From Hyaloperonospora brassicae (lineage: Eukaryota > Oomycota > Peronosporomycetes > Peronosporales > Peronosporaceae), in NCBI GenBank assembly GCA_947650285.1, contig CANTFL010001441.1:279798-343797 (forward strand): a stretch of DNA of 64,000 bases. Reading direction: 5' to 3'. The position numbers and the translations under genes are program-made. Numbering within the stretch: position 1 is the stretch's first letter; the number at the start of each line of letters is the position of its first letter. Positions 9,716 through 64,000 of the stretch are shown in pieces. The notes beneath the pieces are model-generated. The model saw nothing but the letters and a program-made list of their open reading frames with translations. It did not search any database and had not been told where the DNA came from.

Positions 9716-9751
<36 letters not shown>

Positions 9752-30444: not shown

Positions 30445-32100
30445 CCTGGTAGAGCTTCGTGTTCCACTCAACGACCACATTCACTTCTTTCCAACATAAA
30501 GTTGTTGATTAAAGATACGCCACGCGTAAAAGCTATGCGTGTTTGAACGACATCGAACGGACTGAGGTATAAAGTGAGTTCATCCGTTAGGATTCGACGT
30601 CAGGGCCATGTTAGAGGCTCTCGGCAGACACCAGCAGCATACCGCTATAGCCGACTTCGGTTCTGATGAATTTATCGGTGAAAACAAGAATTGTAATTTG
30701 CTATACTAACATGTCTTTCACCAGGCTGAGCTGGTTGGATAGTGCGGTACTCAACAGACAGAGCTGTTATGCCGGCATCAAACTAGTGCTTCTGTGGGTG
30801 AAATGGGGTGACAAATTATATGTGGTCGTTCAAGATTTTAGTAGATATTTACATAAGTTACCTATTGGCAGTATTTGGATAGCGGATACTGAGCGTCTCT
30901 ATTTCACCGGTTAAATCAACAGGGTGCAGACTTAATATTTACCCATTGCTAAATAGGTTTATATTGGAGTGGTCCCACGAGCTGGGGAATATATTCGCAC
31001 TTTTTTGCAAATTATATATGACAAGATTCAAACAAAATGATTTTACCTTGTCGATAAGATCGCTTAATTAAAGCTATCAGAGTGTATGACGGTCCCGGGG
31101 CTCTCACCCGATTACAGTGGGCGGTTCGACGCACCCGTCTCGTCCGAAATCGTTAAAAATAAGATATCCGAGTGCAGAGCAGTCGGGGATAACTCCCTGT
31201 CAACATTCTTCATCGAGTTGGATGACGTCGTACGGCTAGTCGCATCGTCAACGATGAACTGAAAGTTTCATTGACCCAGTACAACCTGGCCGGAAGTGCG
31301 AATAATTGGGCCTCAGGGCTTAAGATCCGGGATGGTAAAGCTCCCAGATGGTAAGCACATAATCATTTGGGTCAATCAAAGCTTTTTTATTAGCTCATAC
31401 ACTCGCTTGACCTGCCACGCGATATTTTCCGAGCTCATGCCAATTCTTTTACACTAAAATAGAGTTCACTGGATGTGCGCGCGTACGAGCAGCTCAGCTG
31501 ATACCTTTCCAGTTGCATTTCTGATAATTCGATGGATGAACACAAGTTAATAAAGGCATTTCTGTAATGTCTTGCGAATGGACTTATAAATACGAACCTG
31601 TTCCACCTGATTCTATTTGCGCTAGAATTTATTATCTTGATGGCGGAACAAAGACCTTTTTTAGACAGGCTACACCTAGCTCTTTAACCCATAGTCATGT
31701 AAGACGACAGGATATTGGAGGTTCATAACCCATGGACTTCTGTTTCGTTGAAGGCAAGAAACTTCGCTTTTATATGGAGAATGTCTGTAGAAGTGCAATC
31801 GCTATCATAATTTAAAACTACGTCTATAAGTATAGTATTCTAATCCAAGCACAAACCAGTGATGAGCCAATTGATCGACCGTCTGCTACGAAGAGCATCG
31901 GGCGCGACTCTGTTTCGAAGTCGCATCAGCGAGGAATAAATACAACAAAATGGTCGGGCTAGTAGGAGCGGACTAACCTTCTGATCAAGCAACCTAACAG
32001 ATATATGCAAAACGCGTGACGACAGTAGCTCCTAGCACACATTCGTTGTGAGGCATTTCCCCCGGTAATTAGTTTTCCTTCATTACCCTGAACATCGAAG
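30445..32100 (+). pseudogene. gag relic of the old gypsy element
   Basis: The segment 31,250-31,350 aligns with 46,735-46,820 of the intact gag (capsid region), and 31,925-31,990 aligns with the gag-protease junction at about 47,405-47,470. The frame is broken throughout and the zinc-knuckle region appears deleted. Confidence 0.65.
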
Positions 32101-35100: not shown

Positions 35101-36200
35101 TATCCTCTGCCCGTTCCGGCAATAGATAGCAGTCCGTCTCAATGTATAGTTGTATTCTGGCTTCTAAAGACTATCGCAAGAATACAGATATGCTTGTTAT
35201 TGCTGGTCAGTTCGGCAAGATTGTTCATCTTGTTGCTAAGTTGAAGTCGAATCCATCAAAGGATCGTGCTCGTCTTTAAAAGCACGAGACACGGTCTTTT
35301 GACCTCATTAAATTCCTTGTGTACTTTCTCCGATCGCTGACCTAGATTCGCATCGTATTTTAAGCATTTTTTGGCCCGTTTCATTGGACACGGATCAAGA
35401 TATCGACGATCGATCCTTCACAAGCAGATAATCAGACGGATGTGTTGCGATCTATTTCCTCGAAATCAAGTTATAATGATATGTCCACACTTTGACAATT
35501 GAGAGTAAGCTCTTACCTATGGTTGAACTTTGCCATCGATAACTCAGTACATGCGCCCACTAAGCATAAATCGTTCTATGTGAAAATCTTTCGTTATCCA
35601 CATTCGTCCGCTCTCTTATGGTGTTTCTCTATATCAAAAGGGGTGGCTCGAGGAGATACGGCGATGGCTTTTATCATACGTCGACGCTAGTGTCGACCAA
35701 AGCGATGTTTCCTCGAGCTAACCCGAGGAAATACCGCTTTGGCTCTCGCTCATCATGTGTCGACGCTATTGTCGACACGAACGGTGTCAATGTCGACCTG
35801 ATCGACATCAAAGAACGCAAAATCTGCCATAGCGATGACGACGTTGGTGACTCAGAAGATGATGACGATTGTGGCATATTCATCATTTCTAAGAATTATC
35901 AAGAATGACTCCATACTACCGGTAAAATAGAAACATATCTTGTAAGTACACTTACTACGCACTGAAAACACAAACAAAGCCGAGTCAGCAGAGTAAATTC
36001 GGCTGACCCGAGATGTGATTATCCGTTTCGTACAGAGTTCTAACACTGACGAAGGGGGCCATGGGAGAGTGGAAATCGGAACGTTGGTAAGTAAACAAGC
36101 ATAAATCTTCTTATATTTCACATTTACGACCCATTATTACTGACTACGGAGAAACTGCATTAGCATTTAGTAACTTTTTGCAGAAAGTAAGAAACTTCTG
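32101..36200 (+). pseudogene. pol relic of the old gypsy element
   Basis: A protease active-site region is recognisable at 32,113-32,160 (LVDCG-like), reverse transcriptase at about 33,290-34,150, RNase H around 34,230-34,460, integrase at about 34,640-35,470 and the acidic linker at 35,490-35,910. All are interrupted by stops and indels. The 35,640-35,800 stretch contains an internal near-duplication of a CGAGGA-TACGGCGATGGCTTT-like block. Confidence 0.7.
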
Positions 36201-36289
36201 CCGAAACATATTGGCCCGCTTCGAGTGTTGCATCCCCAAGTAAACTCATGACGCGATCTGTTGCCTTAACGGATGCGTACGCATCCTAA

Positions 36290-38300
36290 GCTGTTTGTGG
36301 GTCGTCTTCATCTGTGATGTCAGTATGTAGCTTCTTCCGCACTCGAAGACATCTATCATGTTCAATGGTTTCCAACAATTTTTCGATTCAAGGACAAACC
36401 TCTTGATCCGGCCCTTGGATGACTAGATCTCGCGCTGATATATCGCTAGATCGTCTCGTAGGAGTCTAGCGGTCATTCTTGAATCCGGCGAGCGTAAAAA
36501 TGTATCATTTATCCGTCTAACTGGCACGATAGCGCTAAACAATCGTGTCGACGATTACGCTCGTGATCACGTCTTTACGCTACTAGCTGTGGACGCGTTC
36601 GTGTCAATCACAGGCTTCACTTCGGCAATAATTTGGACCTGATCTTCGTGTCTCCACCACAACCGATGACGGCCTCGTAAGATGGCTAGCTCTTGCACGT
36701 GAAGCGCAACTTGAGCTATGTGACGTGATGGGGTAGCACACCAAAAATCTTCTTCGCTGAAGAGGGTATTCACCTTCCCATGAAAATAGTAGTCCCATGC
36801 ACGTCTAAAGTATCAAGGTCATCATTGAGCATTTTAATGAGGATCATCCGATGGCTCAAAAGGTCCGTCGAAATCACGCGTCGCTAGCGCTTATAGACGG
36901 ATTGTATATTATCGATCGCGCCTCGCATCTCAGATGATATGTGTTCCCTGCCCTAGTTCAAAATGGAAATATTGTTCTTTTCGGCCGCGTTTTAAGCTGT
37001 CAGAACTGTTCGAAAATATCACTTCTGATAGGTCATCAAAGTTTTGAAGATTCCCGGCAAGAGTTGTTGCAGGTAAGGTCCGACCTCACCATTGGCTGTT
37101 GCGCATACAACTTGACAGATGGGAAAAGGAGAGACGGACTTTACGTGCACGGATCAGGACATAAATCCAGATAGGAACGTTCGATAAGGTTTACAACCAT
37201 TACTACAATATGATCACAGCCGAAATGGACGAACGCCATATGCAACTTGATCTGGTCAAGTTACAGTAATTGTTGACTGCATGATGTATTGTTAACGGAA
37301 TAATTTCCACTGCATATATTTTCTTTTGATTCCAATATATTTTTCACGAGTGCAACTAGGAACCATTTACTACAAGTACAACTCGAACTGTTCCTCTTCA
37401 CTTAAAGCAAGGAAGTCCTGCCTTACAAGACAGCCGATGCAGTCCAAGATTCGCACCGGTTGGGGTTCTCTTGTCGAACCCTACACGATATTTGTAAAGT
37501 TGTGAAAGCCGTAATTCGCCCTCAGTGTCTTAGAAGTTGCTGATGAACACCTTCCAAGTTTGCACTAGCAATTTTTATCTCGTCATATTAACCGTTGATA
37601 CCCTGATCCATCATAAAGCATGATTTTCATTTTTTCTCATCTCGAAAGTTGCTTGCGCTGATATGAACGCTGCGGAGCGTATTTGCATCGAATTTGGGTA
37701 CTCGATGATGTTTCCTTGTCTCACCAAACGAGCGGTTGATGAGACGCTCTGGAAAAGCCAAGGCTTGAGCTCAGAGGCTCGACACAAGATATTGCGGTCT
37801 AGTGTCTCCTTCTTGATACTTACTGAAGTAGTGGTACCACGATGGTCAGTATCACGGTGGCGCGAGTCATCGTTGTTATAGTGCAATTGCGCAGGAGACA
37901 ACGCAGTCTCAGAAGCAAATAGACTGTGATATATCTCATGTTTTGTTCTGTTTGGGCGATCCTTCTTGCTCAGAGGCTCTATTTTGAGTGTCGCGGGTAA
38001 TTAAGGTGAACTAGCAACCACCTTAGAGTCGGAACCGTCGTCCAAATTGATAGAGTAGATGAGCTACACTTCAAATTTATCCATTTAACGTGCTGGGGTA
38101 CCGCGTGCAATTGCAGAAGCAGGTGCTGTCGATGTAATATTGCCCGTGTTGCAGTACCATGTGCACTTACAGCGACAAGTGCTGCGAGTTTGGGCAAATC
38201 AGCAGCAAGTAAAAAAACGTCTGCCACGTTATCTTGTGCAACGTAACTTGCAGCTACATTCATCTGTACAGCTACTTATTTTACGTCTAAATGGTACGCA
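36290..38300 (-). pseudogene. Antisense ORF relic in the old gypsy element
   Basis: This interval corresponds to 51.7-53.3 kb of the intact element, where a long frame runs on the opposite strand. Matching words occur near 36,620-36,960 and 38,050-38,110, and the polypurine tract follows at the expected place. No long frame survives. A near-duplicate of the segment around 38,096-38,130 occurs again at about 38,155-38,190. Confidence 0.5.
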
Positions 38301-44715: not shown

Positions 44716-44850
44716 ACCAACACATTATGGCCAAACTCAATACACAAACTGTCTTTGCGAATCGAGACGCGCTTATGGACCATGTCAATAATTTTGTACT
44801 GGAGGCAGATTTCGCATTCCACAATCAAACGATCGGATAACACGTGTACC

Positions 44851-45290
44851 TGTAACGGGGCACCGACAACTACGTACTGGTCAACCAGTACGGAGTTTAC
44901 TATCACTGACTGTAGTGATAGTCAGTGCTCATCTAGGTGTAGAACTACACAGAGGAAGGTAGAACGACAAAGGTGAAAGACTCTAGTCGTAGAAAAATTA
45001 AAACTGTATTAATATAATTAAGTCCTCTAACTTCTTGAATCTCTGTTGTCCTGACTTATTTATACTTATATAACTAAATGTATGATGACGTCTACTCACT
45101 ATCCATTGCACGCGTCTAGCACCGATTGTTGGGTTCGATATCATCACGATATCAACCAATGAGTAGACCCTTCGGTCATCTCAACAATATCACCATGTCT
45201 GTGATATTGTTAGACGAACATTTGACGTAAAATTCTTTATTGTAATTTTATCCTTAATGACAATTCCATGTAACGGGCTACCCCGTTACA
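44851..45290 (-). repeat. Solo LTR of the gypsy family
   Basis: It starts TGTAACGGGG and ends CCCCGTTACA, the family's terminal inverted repeat. The conserved LTR interior is present in reverse orientation: GCACGCGTCTAGC, the ATATCATCACGATATCAA block and AATATCACcatgtctGTGATATT. No polypurine tract or primer-binding site is next to it. The flanking pentamers (GTACC left, TTGAT right) do not match, so a target-site duplication is not visible. It carries two hairpins absent from the young LTR near its outer end (CGTACTGGT/ACCAGTACG and ACTATCACT/AGTGATAGT). Confidence 0.85.
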
Positions 45291-45841
45291 TTGATAGCTG
45301 GTCAGATACCACCCCTCGGCGATCCCCCTGTGGTGAAAACGAAGGGCAGGCCTTTTGGGACGAAAGTAGCCGAAGTCGTCGACAAAACGAGATCCGTCTA
45401 GATTTGAACATGCCACAGAACGTCGCCATAATTGCAGACTCTGTGTTGAACATAACCATGACAAACGCTCATGCTCGTAGAAGATGAACGAGAAAAAAAG
45501 ATGAGGCTGGAGGAGGAGGAGAAGAGGTGCACGAAGAAGAAAATCTACCTACGGTAACGCCGCTGACCTTTTCCACCTTCAGCGCTGGAGAAGACATGAC
45601 AGTCTTTATTGGTGACGGAAAATGCGATATAACAGGATGACCTTTCAAATCTTATGTCAGGTGTTATCAGCTTAACGTTTAATCAGGCAATGAACGAATA
45701 GATATTACGATGACTGGTTTGTCTACAGTGAATGAATGAATCATGTTGGCCATGGGTCAAGGTAGCGAGCGGGTGTGCCGAAGAATCCATCATATTAATC
45801 AGCTCGTCAATTGCGCTACACAGTTGGCTTAAGCGCATGTA
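45291..45841 (+). other. Unassigned coding-like fragment
   Basis: One frame at about 45,490-45,640 reads an acidic Gly/Glu-rich run and then TFSTFSAGEDMTVFIGDGKC, which looks protein-like and may derive from a retrotransposon gag or a host gene. It is interrupted by stops. The young gypsy element was inserted at its end. Confidence 0.3.
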
Positions 45842-45846
45842 CAACT
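45842..45846. other. Target-site duplication, left (CAACT)
   Basis: CAACT immediately before the 5' LTR; identical to the pentamer after the 3' LTR. The pre-insertion site would read GTACAACTAGCC. Confidence 0.95.
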
Positions 45847-46237
45847 TGTAAAGGGGCAGCCCGTTACATGAAATTGTCACTTTAAGGAAAAGTGACAATA
45901 AAGAATATAAAGATGGATATTCTTTAAAACAATATCACCAAAGTGGTGATATTGAAGGGTCGACCAAAGGGTCTGTTCATTGGTTGATATCGTGATGATA
46001 TCAACCCACCAATCGCCGCAAGACGCGCGCAATGAGTGGTGACGAGACGTCACCATACATGCAGTTATATTAGTATAATTGAATTAAGTCAAACGAAGAG
46101 ACAGTAGTTTAGAGACTTAATTTATTAATATAACAGTTCTACTTTTACCCTACCTACGCTTCCTCGCTTGCCACGTGTACGTCTGTCGGGGCACTCAAAA
46201 CCCTTGCGTTAAGTTACACAAGGGTGTGCCCGTTACA
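45847..46237 (+). repeat. 5' LTR (391 bp)
   Basis: It starts TGTAAAGGGG (C-to-A change relative to the 3' LTR) and ends CCCGTTACA. It contains at least six perfect hairpins at the same positions as in the 3' LTR. Confidence 0.95.
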
Positions 46238-46239
46238 CC

Positions 46240-46250
46240 TGGTAGCACTT
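46240..46250 (+). other. Primer-binding site, tRNA-iMet type
   Basis: TGGTAGCACTT lies two bases after the 5' LTR. Its first eight or nine bases equal the complement of the 3' end of typical eukaryotic initiator methionine tRNA (TGGTAGCA), the usual Ty3/gypsy primer. The match beyond that is not good. Confidence 0.6.
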
Positions 46251-46281
46251 AGTAGTCCTTCCAAGGACCACATCATCCAAC

Positions 46282-47259
46282 ATGAACATGTTGGATGAAG
46301 AAGACACCTTTCACGCCACGCGTGAAGGGTTTACCCATTTGAGTGACATCGAATGGGGTGCGGTAGAACGAATGAGTTCTACCGTAGGCGAACTCGTCGT
46401 CAGCACCATGTTGGAGTCTCTAGACAGAGACCAACAACATGCCGCTATCGCCAAGTTCATTCATAATGAACTTGCTCTCGAGAGGGAGAAAGTAGCCTTG
46501 CTTCACCAGCAAGGCTCTCAACAGGCCGAGCAGTTGAGAGAACTCGGTGCTCAACAGACGGAGCTGTTGAGACAGCAGCAATTCCATGCTGCTGTGGGCG
46601 GGACGGCGCATGCGCGTCGTCCCGAAGTCATGAAAGTCGACATCTCCAAGTACAGTGGAGTCCCGGAGGACTCCCTGTTACTATGGTTTGTCGAACTCGA
46701 CAGAGCCTTAAGGGCTCGTCGCGTCGAAGATGAGCAAATGAAACTCACATTTGCTCAGACCCACTTGGCAGGACGTGCCAAAACTTGGTCCTTAGGGCTC
46801 GAGAGTAGCGACCCACATGTGTTTAGGTTGCTATCTGACTTCAAGGCCCGGCTCAGACAAACGTTTGAGCCGCCACGGGCTGAGTTCAGGGATCGTTATG
46901 AGCTCCTGAAACTCAAGCAGGGTAAGCGTGATGTGCACGCTTACGCTCAACATATACGACTCCTTGCGAGTAGTATAACTGCCAACCCAGTGCATGAACA
47001 CACGTTGATTACGGTGTTCATGCAAGGGCTCGCAGAAGGGCCCGTCAGGAGCCACCTGTTCCGCCTTGAGCTGAATACGTTTGAAGAAGCGATATCAGCC
47101 GCGGAGCAGGAAGACTTTAGCATGAGACAGGCTCATGCTAGCTCAAACTCTTATCGTCCACCGAGACGACAAGAGATCGGAGGTCCAGAACCAATGGACC
47201 TCTGCTATGTTGAGAGCGAGAGACCTCGCTCTTCAAACAACAAGCGATTGCAGAGATGA
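46282..47259 (+). CDS. Gag polyprotein, ends in a disrupted zinc knuckle
   Basis: Frame of 325 codons from an ATG 45 bp after the LTR. Residues about 65-110 are a Gln/Glu/Leu-rich probable coiled coil. Residues about 115-290 are a Retrotrans_gag-type capsid domain (YSGVPEDSLLLWFVELDRAL, later LAGRAKTW and LRQTFEPP). The frame stops at a TGA (47,257-47,259) that falls exactly at the first Cys of a CCHC zinc knuckle. Reading on in the same frame gives NRCQK, a second stop (TAA 47,275-47,277), then GHFAHEC, so the remaining Cys, His and Cys are in register. Gag would package the RNA and form the particle; without the knuckle, RNA binding is probably lost in this copy. Confidence 0.9.
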   Translation: MNMLDEEDTFHATREGFTHLSDIEWGAVERMSSTVGELVVSTMLESLDRDQQHAAIAKFIHNELALEREKVALLHQQGSQQAEQLRELGAQQTELLRQQQFHAAVGGTAHARRPEVMKVDISKYSGVPEDSLLLWFVELDRALRARRVEDEQMKLTFAQTHLAGRAKTWSLGLESSDPHVFRLLSDFKARLRQTFEPPRAEFRDRYELLKLKQGKRDVHAYAQHIRLLASSITANPVHEHTLITVFMQGLAEGPVRSHLFRLELNTFEEAISAAEQEDFSMRQAHASSNSYRPPRRQEIGGPEPMDLCYVESERPRSSNNKRLQR

Positions 47260-47487
47260 AATCGCTGTCAGAAGTAAGGGCACTTCGCACATGAGTGTTG
47301 TGCCCCACGCCCAGTACCAAACAGTACTGAGCGAAATGGACGTACCTTTTGCCAGAAAGGGCAATGGGCGTGAGTCCAGCGCTGTTGCGAAGCCGCAACA
47401 GCGAGACGGACCATTAAAAAATGGTCGGGGTCAGTAGGGGCGGAGCGCCCTACTGATCCAGCAACATCAAGAGAATTTGCAAATCTC

Positions 47488-47892
47488 TTGACGAAAGTTG
47501 CTCCAGATACTCAATCATTGTGTGTCTCTGCACCTGGTGATGACGTTTCGCTCATCGCATTGAAGTTGGAAGCGACAAATGATTTGTCGCTTCGTGCCCT
47601 AGTAGACTGTGGGGCGTCGAACAACTTTGTTCGTCGCCAGTTACTAAAGGGTCGTAGGCTCAAGTTCGTTGAGCGCGACATTCCCCTCACAAGGATGACG
47701 GCGCGCCTTGCAACAGGCGCATCGATAACCGTTGAGAAACGTGTAGTAGGAATCCACTACACGTTAGAGGGCGAACAGTACGATGATGACTTCATCGTAC
47801 TATATCTGGATGTCAAATTTGATGCCATCCTGGGATTACCTTGGCTCAGAAAGTACGAGCCAAGGGTGAGCTGGCAGCATTTTATCCGTTAA
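47488..47892 (+). CDS. Retroviral-type aspartic protease domain
   Basis: It is in the same frame as gag but separated from it by stops. The catalytic motif reads LVDCGASNNFV (family D-T/S-G, here with Cys), and the hydrophobic C-terminal motif reads ILGLPWL. This is the Ty3/gypsy protease that cleaves Gag-Pol. The frame ends at 47,892 because of about two extra bases relative to the old copy near 47,885; reverse transcriptase continues in another frame. The start used here is only where the frame opens; in an active element the protease would be part of a polyprotein. Confidence 0.85.
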   Translation: MTKVAPDTQSLCVSAPGDDVSLIALKLEATNDLSLRALVDCGASNNFVRRQLLKGRRLKFVERDIPLTRMTARLATGASITVEKRVVGIHYTLEGEQYDDDFIVLYLDVKFDAILGLPWLRKYEPRVSWQHFIR

Positions 47893-48352
47893 GATGCCTG
47901 CCGCTTGTTCATCACATGGCCATCTGATGAACATCTTGGAGCGTCCACAAGCGTGTGGATGTTCTGCGAGTGAGTGCGATGGCCTCACTTGCGGTACGGT
48001 CGTTAGCACGACCGCACAAGATCACAGTGTAGTTAATCACTACACTGTGTAGCAAGCTCCCGGAGACTGTACAGAAGTACAGGCGGCGCCGAAGGTCCAC
48101 CACTCGAATAAGTTGAGTGGACTGGGGCGTGGATGCATGCCTAGCGGGCAGCATCTTAGAAGTAAGAAACCTGTTGCCTCCAAAGGGCAACATGGAAATC
48201 CTAGGTCGACTGGAGAGTCGACCGTAGAGGATCGGTCCCTGACTGTGGTTGCACAGTCACAGTCAGAAGACGTCGAGGGAATAAGTCCCCACCTACTTGA
48301 GGAAGGAATTCCTCAAGAGTCACTTGCTGAAGTATTAGGCCTTTAGCAACCT
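47893..48352 (+). pseudogene. Protease-RT linker with stops
   Basis: The frame from 47,894 reads MPAACSSHGHLMNILERP and continues through stops at 48,050 and 48,344 into the reverse transcriptase frame. The same linker is present in the old copy near 32,410-32,900. Composition is Ser/Gly/Gln-rich, without a recognised domain. Confidence 0.7.
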
Positions 48353-50908
48353 TTGGAACAAAGTTCCCAGGAAGTAACCGTGACGTTGAACGTCTTGGTT
48401 ACTGACGGATCAAGTGTAGGCGCTTATACGCTTGATCTGATTGTGCCTCCGAAGTTGACTTCGGAGATAAATCAGTTGCCAACGCTAGAACCGAAACGGT
48501 TCTTGCGTGATCTGCGTAGTGGCAAAGTCAAGCAGATCTGCATACTCGTCACAGAGGATGAGTATGTGGACGATATTCGGTCGGCGACAGTATTTGCTGA
48601 GAAAGAACGGGTTCTCAGCAGCTCATCGATGGACGAAAGTGTCCTCGATAAGAAGACTCGAATTAAGCGATACACGTCTCAATCCTGGGAGAAACTTCAG
48701 GCAAATCCTTTGTTCAAGGATTTGATCGAATTCAAGGACGTGTTCCCTGAATCCGTACCTCGCGAGTTGCCTAAGGACAAAGGCACTCGAAACGAGATCG
48801 AGCTCAGACCGGGCTCGAAGTACTGTGTCATGAAGCAGTGGCCACTGCCTCGTGAACAAGTACTAGCGATCGACAAGATCTTTGCCTATCGCTTAGCAGC
48901 AGGCCATTTGAGAGAATCAACATCCCATCACAGCTCTCCGACCTTCTGTGTGCGAAAGGCCACAGGAGGATGGCGGATAGTGCACGCATTCAACAAGTTG
49001 AATGCTGCAACGGTACCGGCTCAGACGCCGATACCGAGGAAGGACGTAATCATAGATGGTATGTCAAAGAGTACCATCTTTTCGTCCATGGATCTGATGG
49101 ATGGATTCTATCAGATCCTCATGCGTGAACGGGACATCCCGTTCACAGCAGTGAGTACCCCCAGCGGTATGTTGTGGGAGTGGCTAGTGATGCCACAGGG
49201 GATGAGCAATTCCCCTGCTACTTTCAACAGATGTGTCACAAATCTGTTGAGACCGGTGCGAGAATTCGCACCGAGTTACTTCGACGATGTGTTCGTCCAT
49301 AGCCGGGCTATGGACGGAAAGACGGACGTTGAAGTTCACAGAACTCACGTTCGTCAGGTTCTCCAACTTATGCGCAAGCATAAGTTGTACGCCAACCTCA
49401 AGAAGTGTATATTCGCGGCTAGCGAAATGCCACTTTTTGGGTGCACCGTGGGTAAACACGGCGTACGCCCTAATCCCGAAAAGATCAAGGCGATCACCGA
49501 CTGGCCAGTGCCAGTCGATGTCAAGGTACTAAGGAAGTTCCTTGGTCTAGCGGCGTACTTGCATAAGTACTCTCGCAACTACGCCGAGATGACGGTACAT
49601 ATTTCTTGGTTACTCAAGAAAAATGTCAAATGGTCATGGAACGCTGAGTGCCAGCGTTCCTTTGAAGGTATCAAGCGGAGCTTGATGCAATCGCCGATCT
49701 TGGCGATTGCAGATCAGGACAGACCATTTCATGTGGTCTGTGACGCCAGCGATTTTGCAATCGGCTGTGCGTTAATGCAGTTCGACGCAGATGGCGCGGA
49801 GCGCGTCATCTGTTATCAGTCGCGTCAGCTGCAAGCAGCTGAGCGTAATTACCCAGTGCATGACAAGAAACTCCTTGCCATGAAATACGCACTGGCTAAG
49901 TTTCGCGTCTATCTCTTGGGAGATAGACCGTTTGTTGTCTACACGGACCATGCGTCATTACGCACGGCCGTAAACAGCCCACACCTCTCGCAAAGAATGG
50001 CGAGGTGGCTGTCTTTCTTCGCGGAGTATAACTTCTCCGTGGAGTATAAACCGGGACGACTCAATGTCGTCGCGGATGCTCTTTCGCGCCGGCCCGATTT
50101 CGAGCCAGACGCACAATCCAACAGTGAGGATAAGCCCACTGTTGCGACACTGTCAGTCAGTGTCCCGTCGTCAAGTTTACTTGACGACGTACGAAAGGCG
50201 TACGCGGAAGATAAGGATCATCTGCGAATAATGGATCATCTGGTGCATCTATCCAGTAAATCATTAGAAGATTTACCGGCTTTATACCGATCCTCATCGG
50301 ATCGGTATAGTACACGCAACGAATTGCTGTACTATACAGCTGTTGCCGACGACACGCCTCGTGTCGTCGTACCCGCTCATCATGATTTGCGGTTGCGCAT
50401 CATATACGAGTGTCACGATGCCAAAACAAGCGGCCATCGTGGAAGGGAAAAGACTTACCTCACGGTAAGTCGTGACTTTTACTGGCCCCGCCAGTATCAA
50501 CTTGTACGCAAGTACATACGTGCTTGCGAGATTTGTCAACGGGTGAAGCCTAGTCCTTCATTCCGTGCGCCATTGCAGCCTCTGCCTGTTCCGACAGAGT
50601 GCTGGCAGTCCGTTTCAATGGACTTCGTCTTCGGGTTTCCCGAAGACGCTCACAAGAATAATGGTATTCTTGTGTTTGTAGACCGATTCAGCAAGATGGT
50701 CCATCTTGCTGCTGTCCCTGAGTCGATCAAGGCTCAAGGTTGTGCTCGTGTCTATTTCGACACGGTCTTTAGACTCCACGGGTTACCCCTTGAACTCGTA
50801 TCCGACCGTGACCCTCGGTTCACGGCGGAATTTTGGCAAACCGTGTTCCGTACTCTCGGAACACGATTGAAGATGTCCACTTCTGACCATATAGAAACAG
50901 ATATTTAG
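48353..50908 (+). CDS. Pol: reverse transcriptase, RNase H, integrase
   Basis: 851 codons. Reverse transcriptase spans about residues 150-400, with SYFDD (Tyr309-Asp312) as the catalytic motif and WLVMPQGMSNSPATF upstream. RNase H begins at CDASDFAIGCALM (Asp464) and includes YTDHASL. Integrase has an N-terminal HHCC zinc domain (HHDLRLRI ... CHDAKTSGHRG ... CEICQRVK) and a D,D-35-E core with Asp757 (MDFVFGF) and Asp818 (SDRDPRF). The catalytic Glu lies at 50,912, two codons after the TAG at 50,906-50,908 that ends the frame, so this copy lacks an intact integrase. The first codon is not a true start; the domain belongs to a Gag-Pol precursor. Family: Ty3/gypsy, chromovirus branch. Confidence 0.92.
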   Translation: MEQSSQEVTVTLNVLVTDGSSVGAYTLDLIVPPKLTSEINQLPTLEPKRFLRDLRSGKVKQICILVTEDEYVDDIRSATVFAEKERVLSSSSMDESVLDKKTRIKRYTSQSWEKLQANPLFKDLIEFKDVFPESVPRELPKDKGTRNEIELRPGSKYCVMKQWPLPREQVLAIDKIFAYRLAAGHLRESTSHHSSPTFCVRKATGGWRIVHAFNKLNAATVPAQTPIPRKDVIIDGMSKSTIFSSMDLMDGFYQILMRERDIPFTAVSTPSGMLWEWLVMPQGMSNSPATFNRCVTNLLRPVREFAPSYFDDVFVHSRAMDGKTDVEVHRTHVRQVLQLMRKHKLYANLKKCIFAASEMPLFGCTVGKHGVRPNPEKIKAITDWPVPVDVKVLRKFLGLAAYLHKYSRNYAEMTVHISWLLKKNVKWSWNAECQRSFEGIKRSLMQSPILAIADQDRPFHVVCDASDFAIGCALMQFDADGAERVICYQSRQLQAAERNYPVHDKKLLAMKYALAKFRVYLLGDRPFVVYTDHASLRTAVNSPHLSQRMARWLSFFAEYNFSVEYKPGRLNVVADALSRRPDFEPDAQSNSEDKPTVATLSVSVPSSSLLDDVRKAYAEDKDHLRIMDHLVHLSSKSLEDLPALYRSSSDRYSTRNELLYYTAVADDTPRVVVPAHHDLRLRIIYECHDAKTSGHRGREKTYLTVSRDFYWPRQYQLVRKYIRACEICQRVKPSPSFRAPLQPLPVPTECWQSVSMDFVFGFPEDAHKNNGILVFVDRFSKMVHLAAVPESIKAQGCARVYFDTVFRLHGLPLELVSDRDPRFTAEFWQTVFRTLGTRLKMSTSDHIETDI

Positions 50909-51211
50909 AAGGAACGTGCGAACCGTGTCCTCGAAGAGATTCTTCGAGGATATGTCCACTCGTTTTCGAGTTGGAGCGAATATCTACCCATGGTGGAATT
51001 CGCCATCAATAATTCGGTGCATGCTTCAACACAGCACACACCGTTTTACGTGAATGGCCTACGCCATCCACGAGTGCCCACCCTTATAGAGTGTAACTCT
51101 TGGATAAGGGGGGAGGGACTCACTCGAGCAAAAACCGTTTTGGCTCTTGCTCATCACGTGTCGACGCAAACGTCGTCACGTATGATGCCGATGTCGATCA
51201 AGTCGACATAG
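50909..51211 (+). pseudogene. Integrase C-terminal part after the stop
   Basis: In the same frame as pol, KERANRVLEEILRGYVHSF follows the stop directly and carries the catalytic Glu; MVEFAINNSVHASTQHTPF is the next typical gypsy integrase motif. The frame ends at 51,211 after a shift near 51,110. Confidence 0.8.
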
Positions 51212-52263
51212 ATGAAGAAGATCATCTCAATAATAGCGAAGACGCTATTATTAATTTGGATGATGATGACGATGCTGGTATAATCATCATAGCCAACGAT
51301 TATGTCAGCGAGGAAGAAGACAACCTCGCTGAAGAAGAGAGCAATCTCTTAGCAGTGCGCACGAAGCGCACTGCCAGACAAAACAAAGAGTCAGCAGAGA
51401 ACTTCCTGCCGACTCGACAAGCGGTAGTCCGTTTCGTTCAGGACTCCATCGCAAATGCGGTGGACCGTCAGAAACGGAACGCAGACAAGAATGGAAGAGC
51501 AAATGTTCTTTCATTTAAGGTTAACGACCTAGTACTACTGTCAACGGTAAACCTACCTGGACATGCAGTCACTAGTGTCGGCAGTAGCAAACTACTGCCG
51601 AAATACATTGGGCCATTTCGAGTGTTGCATCGCAAGGGCAATGCATACACACTCGAATTGCCACGTAGGATGCGCACGCATCCTACGTTTTACGTGGGGA
51701 GGCTTAGGTCGTACTGTCAGTACGAGCCTTCTTCTTCCGATGAAGATAGCCCCCACGTTCAAGAACATCCATCAAGTTCTTGCGTTCGCGCTCCAGACGA
51801 TCCGTCTGGTCGCGCAGATATGATACCTCGGTATTCAACCGAGATATCTCCCCGCGAGCTGTCGCCAACTCGCCGAATAGGGAGCGGACATCCCGCTCGA
51901 CCTGAAGCTGCGCCGTGGCATAATCGGCGCGATCCCTCGCCCGATCAGCCTCGTGACCCTTGCGGTTCTTCCGCACGGTATCGGGCAAAGCGTAGCGCCG
52001 ATCACGCTCGTGCTTCAAGTCATCGCGCAATTCATCGATTGCGCGATCCATCTCGTAAGGGTCGAGATGGTGAGCAGAATCATCTGGAGGAGGTCTTTCC
52101 TCCTCCACCACATCCTTTGGTGGATGCTCACGGTGATCAACGCTTTCTAGTGGAGCGTATCTTGAATCACCGTGACGATTCAGGATCAAGGACGAGCTAC
52201 CTCGTCCAGTGGCGAGGGTATCCCCCTCTTGGAACAGCTGGGAGCCCCGCTCTCAGCTGTTGA
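51100..52263 (+). CDS. Integrase tail, acidic linker and chromodomain
   Basis: 387 codons in a frame different from the reverse transcriptase frame. It contains an acidic run (residues about 40-80, many Asp/Glu), then DRQKRNADKNGRAN and the GPFRVLHRKGNAYTLELP motif of the GPY/F-type integrase end, an Arg/Pro/Ser-rich linker of about 120 residues, and a chromodomain (FLVERILNHRDDSG ... YLVQWRGYP). The chromodomain is cut by a missing base near 52,222: in the neighbouring frame SWNSWEPRSQLL continues it to a natural stop at 52,330-52,332. Chromodomains direct integration to histone-marked chromatin. The linker is antisense to a coiled-coil frame on the other strand. Confidence 0.85.
   Translation: MDKGGGTHSSKNRFGSCSSRVDANVVTYDADVDQVDIDEEDHLNNSEDAIINLDDDDDAGIIIIANDYVSEEEDNLAEEESNLLAVRTKRTARQNKESAENFLPTRQAVVRFVQDSIANAVDRQKRNADKNGRANVLSFKVNDLVLLSTVNLPGHAVTSVGSSKLLPKYIGPFRVLHRKGNAYTLELPRRMRTHPTFYVGRLRSYCQYEPSSSDEDSPHVQEHPSSSCVRAPDDPSGRADMIPRYSTEISPRELSPTRRIGSGHPARPEAAPWHNRRDPSPDQPRDPCGSSARYRAKRSADHARASSHRAIHRLRDPSRKGRDGEQNHLEEVFPPPPHPLVDAHGDQRFLVERILNHRDDSGSRTSYLVQWRGYPPLGTAGSPALSC
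51704..52189 (-). CDS. Antisense coiled-coil segment
   Basis: 161 codons on the minus strand, opposite the linker before the chromodomain. Residues about 45-145 are strongly Glu/Arg/Leu-rich with coiled-coil character (ERDRRYAL, ATARGEISRLNTEVSYLRD, DRLERERKNLMDVLERGG); the C-terminus is basic (HRKKKARTDS). Its TTG codon overlaps the stop of the upstream antisense frame by the bases TTGA. A single missing base near 52,222 accounts for the frame difference, so it is best seen as the C-terminal part of the antisense protein and not as an independent gene. Confidence 0.5.
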   Translation of the reverse strand: MILNRHGDSRYAPLESVDHREHPPKDVVEEERPPPDDSAHHLDPYEMDRAIDELRDDLKHERDRRYALPDTVRKNRKGHEADRARDRADYATAQLQVERDVRSLFGELATARGEISRLNTEVSYLRDQTDRLERERKNLMDVLERGGYLHRKKKARTDSTT

Positions 52264-53310
52264 TGGATGTTGAAGGTCTCGTCCGCCAGTATGACGAGAC
52301 CCATCCGATGAGTCCTGTGGCCCATCGATAAACACGCGCCCTAGGCGCTTGTAGACGGATTGCAAGTTTGCCATCGCGTCACGCATCTCCTCCGAGATGT
52401 ATGCCCTTCCCCAGGGCGAATTTAGGGAGTACACATCCCTATGTGCACGCTGCGAGTTGTCAACACAACTCGCACAAGGGTCTCCCCATGTGAGGCAAGG
52501 AATGTCTGCCTCACTCGATAAACAATGCAACCGGTACCTAGCACCGGTTGGCGTTCGCCGTTCGAACCTGAGGCGTGTTGCCTCAAGTTTCTTGAGCCAC
52601 CCTTCTCGTCCAAAATTCTTTACGTTTTGGACGAACGCGTTCCACGCAGCCAAAAGCGAGGCTTTGTCACGCTTTTGGTTGCTGTTGTACCATCGATGTC
52701 TAAGAAAGACATCGAGATAAAAATCTTCTTCAGCGCGAAAGTTCTTCGCGCTGGGACTCAAGCCGTGAAGCTCGGTTGCATCGAATAAGGGTATTCGATG
52801 GTGTTGGCCTGTCTCGTGAGACAGGCTATTGATGAGTTGTTCGGGCAAACGCCACGGCTTTAACTCATCACGCTTCACAGTGGTACCCTTGTCGGTACCA
52901 CGGCTCCCAGATTGACGACGGCTCGCGCCATCGTCAATACGATCGTGCGAAGAGGCACGAGCCGGCGGTGGTAAGGAATAATATTCCTCACCACCCTGAT
53001 CATCGTCATCACTGCCGAACAGACTGTGATGCAAATCACGAGTCCGTTCGTTCGGCAGTGGCCTTGGCGAATAATGAGGCGTCGCCGGTGAGCGAGACGC
53101 CTCTGGAGCATTGCCCGAGTCAGACACGTCTGACTCGCCAGAGTAGATGACCTCTACATCAGGGTCATCGTGCGCACCCGGTGTGATACCGCGTGCACCT
53201 GCAGCACCTGTTGCTGCAGGCGAAGAAGGGGCGGCATACGACGAAGCGTCTGCCGCAGAGGCTTGCACAGCACCAGGCTGTGTGGGTCTTGAGTCACCTC
53301 GCATAGACAT
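52186..53310 (-). CDS. Antisense ORF of the gypsy element, unknown function
   Basis: 374 codons from an ATG at 53,310, entirely opposite to the sense genes and lying between the chromodomain and the 3' LTR. Residues 1-47 are Ala/Ser/Gly-rich. Residues 49-66 (DDPDVEVIYSGESDVSDS) look like a SUMO-interaction motif, with the hydrophobic core VEVI at 52-55 beside acidic and Ser residues. An acidic GSDDDDQGGEE run follows near residue 100. A helical, Trp- and Arg-rich region at about 175-235 (EDFYLDVFLRHRWYNSNQK ... KKLEATRLRFERR) may be a folded domain. The same ORF is present in the second copy at 63,661 with mostly silent differences, which argues for translation. An initiator-like TCACTTT lies about 35 bp upstream of the ATG on the minus strand in both copies. 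No family is recognised. Confidence 0.7.
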   Translation of the reverse strand: MSMRGDSRPTQPGAVQASAADASSYAAPSSPAATGAAGARGITPGAHDDPDVEVIYSGESDVSDSGNAPEASRSPATPHYSPRPLPNERTRDLHHSLFGSDDDDQGGEEYYSLPPPARASSHDRIDDGASRRQSGSRGTDKGTTVKRDELKPWRLPEQLINSLSHETGQHHRIPLFDATELHGLSPSAKNFRAEEDFYLDVFLRHRWYNSNQKRDKASLLAAWNAFVQNVKNFGREGWLKKLEATRLRFERRTPTGARYRLHCLSSEADIPCLTWGDPCASCVDNSQRAHRDVYSLNSPWGRAYISEEMRDAMANLQSVYKRLGRVFIDGPQDSSDGSRHTGGRDLQHPSTAESGAPSCSKRGIPSPLDEVARP

Positions 53311-53428
53311 GTTAACTATGCGAGGTCAAGCAGAAAGTGAATGGAACGGACCCAAAAAGTGCCCCCTGTCCCAATGGTGGCCAACGGGTGGCCTCCATGT
53401 TTTCGATAGTCACACGGTGACTATCAGT

Positions 53429-53440
53429 TAAGGGGGGTGA
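53429..53440 (+). other. Polypurine tract
   Basis: TAAGGGGGGTGA directly precedes the 3' LTR. The same tract (AAGGGGGGTGA) precedes the 3' LTR remnant at 38,430 and, inverted, follows the LTR at 63,530. It primes plus-strand DNA synthesis. Confidence 0.85.
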
Positions 53441-53831
53441 TGTAACGGGGCAGCCCGTTACATGAAATTGTCACTTTAAGGAAAGTGACAATAAAGAATA
53501 TAAAGATGGATATTCTTTAAAACAATATCACCAAAGTGGTGATATTGAAGGGTCGACCAAAGGGTCTGTTCATTGGTTGATATCGTGATGATATCAACCC
53601 ACCAATCGCCGCAAGACGCGCGCAATGAGTGGTGACGAGACGTCACCATACATGCAGTTATATTAGTATAATTGAATTAAGTCAAACGAAGAGACAGTAG
53701 TTTAGAGACTTAATTTATTAATATAACAGTTCTACTTTTACCCTACCTACGCTTCCTCGCTTGCCACGTGTACGTCTGTCGGGGAACTCAAAACCCTTGC
53801 GTTAAGTTACGCAAGGGTGTGCCCCGTTACA
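53441..53831 (+). repeat. 3' LTR (391 bp)
   Basis: It starts TGTAACGGGG and ends CCCCGTTACA, so the LTR termini are inverted repeats of each other. Perfect hairpins inside: 53441-53449/53454-53462, 53467-53477/53482-53492, 53492-53501/53510-53519, 53523-53532/53538-53547, 53575-53584/53590-53599 and 53793-53802/53809-53818. Confidence 0.95.
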
Positions 53832-53836
53832 CAACT
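53832..53836. other. Target-site duplication, right (CAACT)
   Basis: CAACT directly after the 3' LTR, identical to 45842-45846. Confidence 0.95.
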
Positions 53837-53934
53837 AGCCTAAATGATTGAACTGTTGAGACCTTTCTCCCTCCAATCACTTCAATTAATTTCTAGCTCA
53901 TGTTCTTGCTCTCCATCTTTACTGTCATCTTGCA

Positions 53935-54461: not shown

Positions 54462-54640
54462 TAGTGTGGTGTGATTGTGAAATGTGCTGTGGTGGTGTAG
54501 TGTGGTGTGGAGGTGCAGTGAGGTGTGCTAGTTATGTGTACTGTAATGGTGGCAGTGTGGTGTGGCGGAAGTTGTTAAAAGTGTGGTGTGGTTGAGCTTG
54601 CTAAAAGTGTGGTGGAAAAATGAAAAAGTGTGGTGGATTA
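54462..54640 (+). repeat. GTGG-rich repeat, inverted partner of 44.6 kb
   Basis: Strongly strand-biased GTGGTG sequence. Its reverse complement matches 44,612-44,715 apart from about 70 extra bases. Confidence 0.75.
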
Positions 54641-54705
54641 AGCAATTTGGTACAGATATCATCATACTTTCTCGTCAATTGGTCCCGACTTAAGGATCAT
54701 ATACA

Positions 54706-54920
54706 ATCGTGTATGATGACGTCTACCAACAACCCATTGCGCGCGTCTAGCAGCGATTGGTGGGTTGATATCATCACGATATCAACCCATGAGTAGACCC
54801 TTCGGTCATCCCAACAACATCATCATGCTCTGTGATTTTGTTGGAAGAATATCCAACGTAATATTATTTATTGACATTTTATCCTCAATGACAATATCAT
54901 GTAACGGGCTGCCCGTTACA
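54706..54920 (-). repeat. Truncated LTR of the gypsy family
   Basis: It ends GTAACGGGCTGCCCGTTACA at 54,920, which on the minus strand is the LTR 5' end. It shares GATGACGTCTAC and GAGTAGACCCTTCGGTCATC with the solo LTR at 44.85 kb, so it belongs to that subfamily. The outer half of the LTR is missing. Confidence 0.8.
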
Positions 54921-57480
54921 TCCCGCCCATGTACAAAAGCAAATATTAGTCTAAAGAGTAAAGCTATGGGTGAGTGTGCGTACAGCGAAAGTCGTACTTT
55001 TCGGCAGCTTCTTTGTACCCATCTGGTTGTGGTTGTAAAACAAGCATACGCACGTTCTCGACTCAAAATCCGTTTTTTTGTTGACCATACATAATAAGCA
55101 TAATCTTGATGCAATATGATCACAAATATCTCGCTTCAATGGGCATCTTGTCGTCAATCCGACCAATTGTAGTAGCCGTTAACAATATTGAACGTGCCTT
55201 GTATGTCCTTGTATGTCATACGGACTCTTGCGAAAGAAGTCTTGTAAACAACTCAGTTCCCTGTCTTGAGATATCTCAGCTTATGACATAGCGTGCCAAG
55301 CCCACAAGTATAAGCTGTAGCGAATGGGCGCATGTATTTTACCATCCTATTCTCCATGTGTCAGACTTCCTTGTAGATATGAAGCCCTGCAGAAACATCA
55401 CCAGCATTTAGCAGCTCAACAAGCAGCAGCTTCCATAGCAATGGTCAAAATAGGAAAGTGGTGCAATCTGTGAAAGCGCTAGGCACGCAAATTTTGCAAG
55501 GATGGAACGACGCTATCGAACGAGCTGATGCGCGCAGAGTTCCTTTGCCATCCGTATCCCCTCTTTACTCGCAACATCTGTCCACGCTCGCTGACAACAT
55601 GCATTAGCCGATAAATTGTCGCTACGTGATTGAAATCTCTGCACCCGCATGCATCGCCGTCTCTACTTCCCTGTTTGACAACTTGGATATGAGAGCCTAG
55701 CGCGCGGCGGAAACGTACTTTTCATAGACAACCGCGACTTCTTCGAGGCATAGCGGGCAGGCTGTGGTCAAACAAATCGCTTATAGAGAATCTAGAACTT
55801 AGCAGATATAGCTGTGGTGTGAGGTAGCTCTCATTCAAGACTTATAGTTCACCTACTGAAGAGCAACGGATAAGCAAAAGCAAGACAACGTTGACATATA
55901 TGATGCTTCCTTCGGCAAATGTATGCGTGAAAAGAAAGGTAAGAAGCGAGAAGACCCTCTCTTCGCTTGGTGCAGTGAGAGCATTTATCTTTCTCCTCAT
56001 CATCAATCAATTGCGCATCGCTAGTCGCATTTTAGTGGTGGTGGTGGTGGTGCGTTGTTGTTGTACAGGCAACACCAGCCGTTGTCTGTCTTTCCTCTCA
56101 CGCTTATCGTCCACGCATCAACTGCTTTAACCAGGTTAAATCCTTGTACAACAACTACGGCAAAACTCTTCGTATCACACCTCACCACGCACAACCCACC
56201 CCCCGCCGCCAGCTCCCACTATCGATAACGGACACGTATATGTCCTATACCTTGCATCAGTCTTCTCTTTGGAATGGATTATTGGTACTAAGGAGTGAAC
56301 TCGAGATCATGCTCCGCTATCTTCGTGTTGCAGTGGTGGCGATACGCCCGCATCGCACTCAGATGCAAGGACAAAGGTAGACTAGGTCCGTTAAAATGCT
56401 TACGTGGATTCTAAGAAATTTAAAGCCAATGTGTAGAATGCTGAGACGACACGTTGACTGCATGCTCCACAATATTGAAAGACGCAGCGCTAAGATCAAA
56501 AGCTACGAGAACATCGACGCAATTGATTGTTATGCAGATGGAAACACGAAAGTGTCATCTGAAAAATATCATCGCTATAACCATTTTGACCTTGCATCTT
56601 ATACATCCGAAATCGGCGAGAGATCGGCCTTATTTTACTGAATAGAGTCGATTCATCGCCAAGACAGAACTAGAACAAGTCTTTCGTGCTCAAGCTGGTC
56701 AATTGTCTTGTAAGTCGGAGCGACAGTTGTGCCTCGGAACTTGTTCAATGGCGTTGTCGTCTCGATCATTGACTGAATTGATCTGTCGATTATTGAGTCG
56801 ACTTCTGACCGACGTCAGTAGTTGCTTCATTGTTGCCCGTTCCAATTTCTTCGACAACATTTGCCAGTAGGAGATCTTTGTCGCTGCCAGTGAAGCTGTG
56901 GATCATCAACAGGTCAAGATACAATACTCGGTCGCTTCTTGACAGACTAGAGAGGAGATGCAATTAGATGGTACGAGGTCGATCTTCACGATAAAGCTGC
57001 AACGAGGCATCAGTACCTGTGTATAGTCAGTATTGCATCGTGAAATAGAAGAACAAGCTGTGGGGAATCTCGAGTGCAGCTTCATGCTGAAACAACGACA
57101 TGGGACCACTAAATGCCGCACAACATTGTCGCAAGCACTGCAGATAGCCAACACAGTGTACTCGACGCAATGAATCGGACATCTTTTATTGTGCGAGCGT
57201 TTGTACCTTTGTGCGAGGACAAGTGGTTGCACGAATGGAGACCCATTGCAAGCCATGAAATGAACGCAGGGAGCTAAGAATGACCCAAAGCCGACGTCTT
57301 ATGTACCACAGCACCCCTGTCACACCGAAACTCGACGTTACACGACCACAACGCGACAAAACTACCCATTCAACTCTCATTTACTGCAGCTTAGAGGTCG
57401 CAAACGATCAATCAGGTACTCCATGTATGTCCTTCCCCACCCGCCACGCTTCTCCATCGACGACGAGTTTAGCAATCGTT
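54921..57480. other. Gene-free stretch before glucokinase
   Basis: Open frames of 60-116 codons occur on both strands without family resemblance. A short (GTG)n run lies at 56,034-56,052. This is the 3' flank of the glucokinase gene. Confidence 0.45.
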
Positions 57481-63137: not shown

Positions 63138-63529
63138 TGTAACGGGGCACACCCTTGCGTGAACTTAGCGCAAGGGTTTTGGGTGCCCCGACAGACGTAC
63201 ACGAGGCGAACGAGGAAGCGTAGGATAAGGAGAAAGTAAAACTGTTGTATTAATATAATTAAGTCTTTTAACTACTGTCTCTCTGTTTGACTTAACTCAA
63301 TTATGCTAATGTAACTGAGTGTATGGTGACGTCTCGTCACCACTCATTGCGCGCGTCTTGCGGCGATTGGTGGGTTGATATCATCAAGATATCAACCAAT
63401 GAATAGACTCTTGGTCGACCCTTCAATATCACCACTTTGGTGATATTATTCAAAGAATATTCAATTAATATTCTTTATTGTCACTTTCCTTAAAGTGACA
63501 ATTTCCATGTAACGGGCTGCCCCGTTACA
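63138..63529 (-). repeat. LTR of the right-hand gypsy copy (392 bp)
   Basis: Termini are TGTAACGGGG and CCCCGTTACA. Hairpins are kept: GGGGCAC at 63144-63150 pairs with 63183-63189 and encloses ACCCTTGCG (63151-63159) pairing with 63169-63177. It is clearly of the same subfamily as the 45.8-kb copy. Confidence 0.92.
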
Positions 63530-63660
63530 TCACCCCCCTTAACTGATAGTCACCGTGTGACTATCGAAAAATATGGCGGCCACCCGTTGGTCACCATTGG
63601 GACAGGGAGCACTTGTTGGGTCCGTTCCATTCACTTTCTGCTTGACCTCGCATAGTTAAC

Positions 63661-64000
63661 ATGTCTATGCGAGGTGACTCAAGACCCGCACAGCCCGGTG
63701 CTGTGCCAGCCTCTGCGGCAGACGATTCGTCGTCTGCTGCTCTTTCTTCGCCTGCAGCAACAGGTGCTGCAGGTGCACGCGGCACCTCACAGCGTGCGCA
63801 TGATGACCCTGACGTTGAGGTCATCTATTCTGGTGAGTCAGACGTGTCTGACTCGGGCAATGCTCCAGAGGCGTCTCGCTCACCGGCGACGCCTCAGTAT
63901 TCGCCAAGGCCACTGCCGAACGAACGGACTCGTGATTTGCATCACATTCTGTTCGGCAGTGATGACGATGATCAGGGTGGTGAGGAATATTATTCCTTAC
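63661..64000 (+). CDS. Antisense ORF of the right-hand gypsy copy (partial)
   Basis: The frame is open from the ATG at 63,661 to the window end (113 codons), antisense to the element. It matches residues 1-113 of the ORF at 52186-53310. Residues 1-47 differ at several positions. From residue 48 to 93 the proteins are identical except His/Gln near residue 81, and there is one Ser/Ile change near residue 97. The SUMO-interaction-like DVEVIYSGESDVSDS is unchanged although its codons differ. Confidence 0.7.
   Translation, partial: MSMRGDSRPAQPGAVPASAADDSSSAALSSPAATGAAGARGTSQRAHDDPDVEVIYSGESDVSDSGNAPEASRSPATPQYSPRPLPNERTRDLHHILFGSDDDDQGGEEYYSL

Follow-up and report, generated by a model that had tools for sequence, protein, structure and literature searches.

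Short perfect hairpins tile members of a Ty3/gypsy retrotransposon clade in the oomycete Hyaloperonospora brassicae

We analysed a stretch of 64,000 nucleotides from Hyaloperonospora brassicae (GenBank assembly GCA_947650285.1, contig CANTFL010001441.1, positions 279,798 to 343,797 of the forward strand; hereafter the window), which carries a Ty3/gypsy long terminal repeat (LTR) retrotransposon at 45847-53831, recognized by its domain order, its LTRs, and its target site duplication. Pfam matches lie between the LTRs in gypsy order (gag, reverse transcriptase (RT), RNase H, integrase, and then an SH3/chromodomain match), and the 5' and 3' LTRs share 98.7% identity over 392 columns. The element is tiled with short perfect hairpins, a feature that is real, extreme, and under constraint. 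Its parts are listed here, with hairpin counts for arms of at least 7 bp.

45842..45846 (left) and 53832-53836 (right), no strand: target site duplication CAACT, 5 bp, read directly from the sequence
45847..46237, plus strand: 5' LTR; 6 hairpins
46282..47259, plus strand: gag frame with a Retrotrans_gag match; 16 hairpins, 16.4 per kb
47260..48352, plus strand: gag-pol spacer, with no open reading frame (ORF) of at least 150 amino acids listed in the window copy; 17 hairpins
47569..47593, no strand: example of the longest class of hairpin, with 12-bp arms and a 1-nt loop
48353..50908, plus strand: pol frame to its stop in the window copy; 37 hairpins
50909..51720, plus strand: remaining integrase region; 9 hairpins
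51100..52263, plus strand: frame with an SH3_Tf2-1 and a partial chromodomain match, from the ORF list and Pfam
52186..53310, minus strand: antisense ORF of 374 amino acids; 19 hairpins, 16.9 per kb
53440..53831, plus strand: 3' LTR; 7 hairpins

In the gag frame, a Ty3_capsid match falls slightly under the cut-off. The pol frame, which encodes RT, RNase H, the integrase zinc finger, and the bulk of the integrase core, is broken in the window copy. A Pfam search with the antisense ORF gave no match; three of the seven loci recognized as 3' LTR ends have a minus-strand frame of 350 amino acids or more.

We defined a hairpin as a maximal perfect Watson-Crick inverted repeat, with arms of at least 8 bp and loops of at most 15 nt as the standard setting. 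A sequence-only reading of the window had listed 23 pairs of hairpin arms in the element and held that they exceed chance expectation; all 23 proved to be perfect inverted repeats, and the excess is larger than it had stated. Between 45848 and 53831, we counted 94 hairpins (both near-identical LTRs are included, and a few repeats overlap), compared with a mean of 1.9 and a maximum of 6 in 60 dinucleotide shuffles. The excess extends to longer arms, with 69 hairpins observed versus 0.63 (maximum 3) for arms of at least 9 bp and 39 versus 0.08 for arms of at least 10 bp, and it persists when codons are preserved, with 27 hairpins versus 0.82 in the pol frame and 12 versus 0.31 in the gag frame (100 codon-preserving shuffles each). 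Shuffles that keep codons or dinucleotides thus lack a similar density, ruling out chance, base composition, and codon content as its cause. Loops in excess measure approximately 1-13 nt, with a peak at 4-5, and the longest arm is 12 bp; stems with loops above approximately 15 nt are few, so long-range inverted repeats were set aside. Density is fairly even, at 11-18 hairpins (arms of at least 7 bp) per kb in the LTRs, gag, spacer, pol, integrase end, and antisense frame, and is lower in the 44-base leader (0) and in the stretch before the 3' LTR (7.8 per kb).

The rest of the window lacks this density. Six other stretches of 7-8 kb, two of them overlapping, contain 2, 3, 1, 6, 3, and 2 hairpins, against 2.3, 2.7, 2.1, 1.4, 1.9, and 1.6, respectively, in 15 shuffles each. 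The stretch with 6 hairpins versus 1.4 contains an old relative of the element (30.4-37.8 kb); the other five are at shuffle level for arms of at least 8 bp, and 6-bp arms are mildly over in some stretches. Four stretches over ORFs (24.7-27.0 and 57.3-60.0 kb, located by ORF alone) have 0, 0, 1, and 0 hairpins. The comparisons by which the sequence-only reading said it could be refuted thus leave it standing. Hairpin peaks elsewhere in the window coincide with further family copies or relatives (44.9-45.3, 54.8-54.9, and 63.1-64.0 kb) or with a (TA)n run. This run, at 9720-9748, contributes 14 palindromes to the count outside the element and, as a simple repeat, is no part of the finding. The copies and relatives in the window are as follows.

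30441..37773, plus strand: old relative of the element, in pieces 65-73% identical; 4 hairpins with arms of at least 8 bp in 7.5 kb
44850..45291, minus strand: LTR of the sister family A2, 77% identical to the LTR of the window element's family (A) over 305 columns
54560..54921, minus strand: A2-like LTR fragment, 82% identical to the A LTR over 217 columns
63138..64000, minus strand: second family A copy, truncated where the window ends; 93% identity over 866 columns and many hairpins in common

The old relative lies on the same strand, approximately 8 kb upstream of the element, with similarity across gag, pol, and part of the antisense region, and its own hairpins are near background level. 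LTRs of A2 or of a near relative stand on both sides of the window element (44850-45291 and 54560-54921); the final part of the A2 LTR differs from the A LTR and still has its own hairpins, a pattern that would fit an exchange of LTR segments. Within the element's LTR, the first hairpin (53441-53462) is a repeat of the terminal inverted repeat (TGTAACGGG / CCCGTTACA), so that the end sequence recurs a few bases inward. Downstream of the insertion, a short TCTTGGTCTTG-type tandem repeat was noticed by eye at approximately 53900-54040.

The same density is found in related copies elsewhere. Besides A (L091) and A2 (L089), we distinguish families B1 (L066), B2 (L081), C (L063), and D; the family B loci are L064, L066, L084, and L085, and those of its sister B2 are L081 and L086. 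Among the matches listed, an RNase H search returned one identical score for most of 150, many of them in 1339-amino-acid frames, and an LTR search gave 99-100% identity in 40 of 40; judged from such matches, family A is large and young. In family C, many copies have a 1795-amino-acid open frame (11 of 150 matches listed), which suggests recent amplification. Protein relatives with an organism name, among the best 120 of 2009, come from Phytophthora, Peronospora, Aphanomyces, and Globisporangium; searches of viral_contigs and genome_contigs returned no relatives.

Leaving out stems of A/T only, we compared hairpin density at loci with LTR copies or RVT_1 matches. The window element has approximately 12 hairpins per kb, versus 0-1.1 at all 30 RVT_1 loci presumed to be non-LTR or non-gypsy (L031-L060, a label that rests on an RVT_1 match longer than at gypsy loci). 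Around copies of the family LTR, 27 of 30 loci have 7.1-13.0 stems (arms of at least 8 bp) per kb; the remaining three, with 2.1-2.4, perhaps hold the LTR alone. All 13 family A pol pieces carry 5.7-13.7 stems per kb (L065 entered the copy comparison without its first 399 bases, and L074 matches over approximately 1.8 kb only), four pieces of families C and D carry 2.9-5.1, and two loci of a different gypsy clade, L061 and L073, carry 0.3 and 0.0. Arms of at least 8 bp are almost absent from family B, which has its own, shorter class: L066 contains 113 stems with arms of at least 5 bp, versus 45.7 (maximum 66) in codon shuffles. Arms thus measure approximately 8-11 bp in A, with loops mostly of 2-10 nt, 4-6 bp in B, with loops of 0-6 nt, and 7-10 bp in C and D. 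The RT pieces of B, C, and D are 67-68% identical to that of A at the protein level, and since the hairpin families form one related RT group with differing arm sizes, the trait is common to the clade and its size family-specific. Within the sampled loci, it is confined to this one gypsy clade.

Hairpin positions behave differently within and between families. Forty-two stems with arms of at least 8 bp recur in at least 4 of the 13 family A copies, so that most stems are common to the family. When stem centres were compared on codon alignments for five pairs of families, with gapped pairs set aside, coincidence was at null level for A-C, A-B, and C-B; A and D share 2 centres versus a null of 0.31 (p 0.04), and C and D share 6 of 26 versus 0.21. 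Hairpins are therefore largely made anew between distant families and inherited within a family. An artefact of assembly or base composition, which would produce the pattern without any biology, has next to no chance of being the explanation: hairpin-dense copies on many contigs share hairpins, refuting an assembly artefact, and shuffles fail to reproduce the density.

We then quantified folding as the minimum folding energy difference (MFED) in 350-base non-overlapping fragments with 10 dinucleotide shuffles each. The MFED of the window gag-pol region is 44.5% on the plus strand and 43.1% on the minus strand; A and A2 give 40-47% (plus) and 38-50% (minus), B 13-15% and 12-14%, C 13% and 15%, and D 5% and 8%, the last being also the values of the old relative. 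Controls, made up of two loci each of other gypsy and presumed non-LTR elements plus 7 kb of the window, range from -3% to +3%. As in genome-scale ordered RNA structure, energies are well under those of dinucleotide shuffles and stem positions are mostly not conserved between families. The claim that the pattern ignores reading frame and strand stands for strand, with a similar folding excess on both, and does not fully hold for frame: among stems with arms of at least 7 bp in A, C, and D, 18 of 101 pair third codon positions together, versus approximately 29 expected from codon shuffles. This bias was not found in family B (35 of 113). Energies in 120-base windows give a hint of coding-strand bias in A, and none in B or D.

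To ask how stems change, we used two sister pairs with long open frames, A/A2 and B1/B2. Third codon positions differ between A and A2 at 22 of 220 sites in the arms of A stems, 19 of 66 in loops, and 131 of 607 outside; for A2 stems, the figures are 11/169, 15/54, and 146/670. At four-fold sites, B1 differs from B2 in 15 of 96 arm, 7 of 20 loop, and 70 of 181 outside positions (Fisher p 5e-5, arms versus rest) and, in the reverse direction, in 18/87, 12/25, and 62/185 (p 0.013). Relative to random Watson-Crick pairs outside the arms, matched for codon phase and with gapped pairs set aside, one-sided changes in stems number 28 versus 63±7 and 12 versus 46±6 for A/A2 and 37 versus 69±7 and 27 versus 64±6 for B1/B2, or 0.26-0.54 of expectation, and loops vary freely. 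Because the two directions of a sister pair share stems, these are two independent tests rather than four. One-sided changes are also reduced from D to C (47 versus 65±6), and in the LTR, from A to A2, arms change less in four of four comparisons (L092: 26/155 versus 66/233; rows A2_54k and A_63k were aligned and excluded from the LTR counts, and gapped pairs were set aside). Stems thus tend to be protected, which suggests that folding may help the element survive.

Two-sided changes that keep pairing are not reduced (10 in total for A/A2 and B1/B2 versus 6.7 expected). Compensatory double changes were tried as proof and rejected: two transitions always restore pairing, so only the depletion of one-sided changes was used as evidence. 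Double changes that are still paired are few in the sister pairs (4/5 and 2/3 in B, 2/3 and 2/2 in A/A2) and elsewhere (12/28 from C to D, 7/16 from D to C, 23/47 from A to the old relative) near the share in matched random pairs (0.34-0.48).

The kinds of mismatch bear on which molecule is constrained. One-sided changes in stems comprise 29 G.T mismatches versus 74.7 expected, 30 A.C versus 72.5, and 45 others versus 94.8, so that loss of pairing is rejected whatever the mismatch; likewise, imperfect 8-pair stems present in at least 4 of the 13 family A copies hold 19 G.T and 21 A.C. In L066, imperfect 5-pair stems are at or under shuffle level (G.T 22 versus 26.2, A.C 15 versus 22.9). In the control phages, the G.U to A.C ratio is 14:15 in MS2 and 25:10 in Qbeta, and the excess of one-mismatch stems over shuffles (G.T, A.C) is 29.5 and 27.1 in the window element, 13.2 and 4.8 in Qbeta, and 8.3 and 8.1 in MS2; the element is matched by MS2 but not by Qbeta, which limits the power of this wobble test. 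Selection on folding of the sense RNA alone, as in ordinary ordered RNA structure serving packaging, translation, or a shield against silencing, would account for the high energy excess of the sense strand and for the protection and stability tuning of stems. We consider it improbable, since G.U is rejected as strongly as A.C, including in the shared imperfect stems of family A, and the minus strand is about equally structured; mismatch blindness and the similar folding excess of the two strands argue instead that both polarities fold or that a copying mechanism is at work.

Stem length and GC content give a further view of what is maintained. Stem length falls as GC content rises, both in the window element (rho -0.28, p 0.0017) and in L066 (rho -0.35, p 0.0013), and this trade-off, found in the window element and family B only, indicates that stability counts. 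In L066, 4-bp stems with loops of 3-6 nt are in excess at 2 and 3 GC pairs (37 versus 16.0 and 38 versus 9.1) with no excess at 0, 1, or 4; 5-bp stems are in excess at 2, 3, and 4 GC pairs (19 versus 2.5, 34 versus 3.0, 14 versus 1.4), and 6-bp stems mainly at 2 (7 versus 0.4). Under RNA parameters, the stem classes of B average -2 to -5 kcal/mol, and those with 8-11 bp arms in A average -11 to -14 kcal/mol; the pattern looks like a stability band. Total palindrome span, which peaks at 13 in B and approximately 23 in A, was dropped as a criterion because chance inward pairing yields the same arm-loop trade-off.

A copying mechanism would explain much of this with no appeal to fitness: RT would fold the nascent strand back at quasi-palindromes, copy one arm from the other, and return, writing hairpins and keeping them perfect, with arm length set by the enzyme of each family. 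Such a drive would fit the rejection of every mismatch type, the scarcity of imperfect stems in L066, the similar structure of the two strands, the family-specific limits on arms and loops, the new stem positions in distant families, and the equal coverage of LTRs and coding sequence. Some single family A copies also carry clustered multi-base differences, and in 3 of the 57 B stems the 2-3 pairs that distinguish them from the sister have changed in one arm only. The sister differences are nonetheless mostly of one pair per stem (31 B stems have no mismatch, 18 have one, 4 have two, and 4 have three), and of the 8 stems differing at 2-3 pairs, 5 are changed in both arms and 3 in one. Polymorphic stems in family A look similar by eye, with single-base differences for the most part. 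In the noncoding LTR, where copying in the absence of selection predicts mostly concerted two-arm changes, 8 stems compared from A to L092 have 16 one-sided, 2 paired two-arm, and 3 unpaired two-arm changes. Left and right arms change about equally, apart from 24 versus 10 in A to A2, and in the window element and L066 arm length varies with GC content. One-pair differences and the rarity of concerted changes therefore disfavour a simple drive, which was the template-switching or self-priming origin raised by the sequence-only reading, and mismatch blindness and the size classes keep it alive; we regard it as unlikely. A combination, in which the genome of the element receives enzyme-sized hairpins from its own RT and retains this coat for the protection that it also gives, is likewise rather unlikely; copying would then give mismatch-blind perfection and family geometry, and selection would give slow decay and the tuning of stability.

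Palindromes could alternatively serve in double-stranded DNA as dyads for protein binding or integration targeting. Strand symmetry and a family-specific span would agree with this, as would the frequent targeting of palindromes by LTR retrotransposons that one paper reports (PMC6911290). No arm or loop motif common to the hairpins is apparent by eye, the base make-up of loops is near that of the whole, some ninety distinct hairpins are involved, and stem length is tied to GC content in both the window element and L066; together, these points make such a role very improbable.

The account that we favour, and to which we attach about even credence, is that selection for local folding of both strands keeps the sequence of this clade in short hairpins. 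On this account, an oomycete-type Ty3/gypsy clade would be held in local hairpins through selection on Watson-Crick complementarity, the selected state being the folded single strand, that is, the genomic RNA plus its complement as complementary DNA or antisense RNA. New hairpins would arise from ordinary mutations and be kept afterwards, and the benefit may be generic, such as fewer stretches open to RNA silencing, less annealing of sense to antisense, or tighter packing inside the particle. The strictness of pairing, which rejects G.U changes like A.C, would follow most readily from a need for both polarities to fold or from stems lying near a stability limit. Selection for folding had been among the suggestions of the sequence-only reading, and it gains support from stem protection in two lineage pairs and from the length-GC trade-off in the window element and B.

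Several observations weigh against it. Stems are not protected from C to D (one-sided changes 89 versus 96±7), and the reduction from A to the old relative is small (257 versus 281±13). In the LTR, from A2, arms are not reduced in either of two comparisons (L092, 32/140 versus 60/248; and 32/142 versus 63/247). Of the two frames in the A/A2 test, which are 90% identical, that of L089 has one stop in the compared part. No significant trade-off between length and GC appears in L091 (-0.12), L089 (-0.10), L062 (0.10), or L081 (-0.28, p 0.067), and in L063 the relation is reversed (rho +0.57, p 0.00014). G.U, whose tolerance is expected of ordered RNA structure, fares no better than A.C, so the constraint is not on sense-RNA folding alone; folding of both strands in turn predicts the strongest reduction for mismatches other than G.T and A.C, contrary to what is seen.

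If selection for folding of both strands is confirmed, genome-wide folding would be a selected trait of retrotransposons too, and not of RNA viruses alone. Families of differing hairpin size co-occur in one genome with hairpin-free gypsy and other RT elements, so the function of whole-genome folding can be tested within one host; candidate functions include silencing escape, a block to annealing, packaging, and reverse transcription. The hairpin size classes offer a handle on mechanism.

Among known systems, quasi-palindrome correction by template switching would give perfect, mismatch-blind short inverted repeats with small loops; the clusters and concerted two-arm changes expected from it are not the rule in the hairpin families. 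The element resembles other oomycete Ty3/gypsy elements in its Gag, RT, RNase H, integrase, SH3/chromodomain match, and LTRs with terminal repeats, and differs in its hairpin tiling and its Pfam-less antisense frame, with the qualification that named relatives were compared as proteins, in which hairpins are not visible. The parts of the literature that our search reached do not describe hairpin tiling in LTR retrotransposons, in line with the earlier statement that no such description is known, and the general idea exists for RNA viruses (PMC7642675, PMC3695492). The closest likeness is to the genome-scale ordered RNA structure of these viruses, with consecutive stem-loops throughout the genome, weak positional conservation, and energies under those of shuffles. 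PMC7642675 reports folding-energy differences of approximately 15% for SARS-CoV-2 and 7.5-10.7% for hepatitis C virus, with 23.4% the record among vertebrate RNA viruses, and several hundred stem-loops with poorly conserved positions. The 38-50% of family A over both strands lies above that record, a comparison to be made with care because fragments, shuffle number, and routine differ. Synonymous constraint is reported not to associate closely with structure (PMC7642675), whereas stems here are synonymously constrained; unlike the viral structures, they are also perfect and discrete, have family-specific arm lengths, show no preference for G.U over A.C, and belong to an LTR retrotransposon in a genome. 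Murine norovirus with disrupted structure replicated similarly in cell culture and had lower fitness in mice, according to PMC3695492. MS2 and Qbeta, run alike, resemble the element in folding strongly on both strands, with an MFED of 28/23% and 33/33%, values that the element exceeds; Qbeta has an excess of G.U and MS2 does not, and the two phages contain 3 and 9 stems with arms of at least 8 bp in 3.6 and 4.2 kb, compared with 94 in 8 kb of the element.

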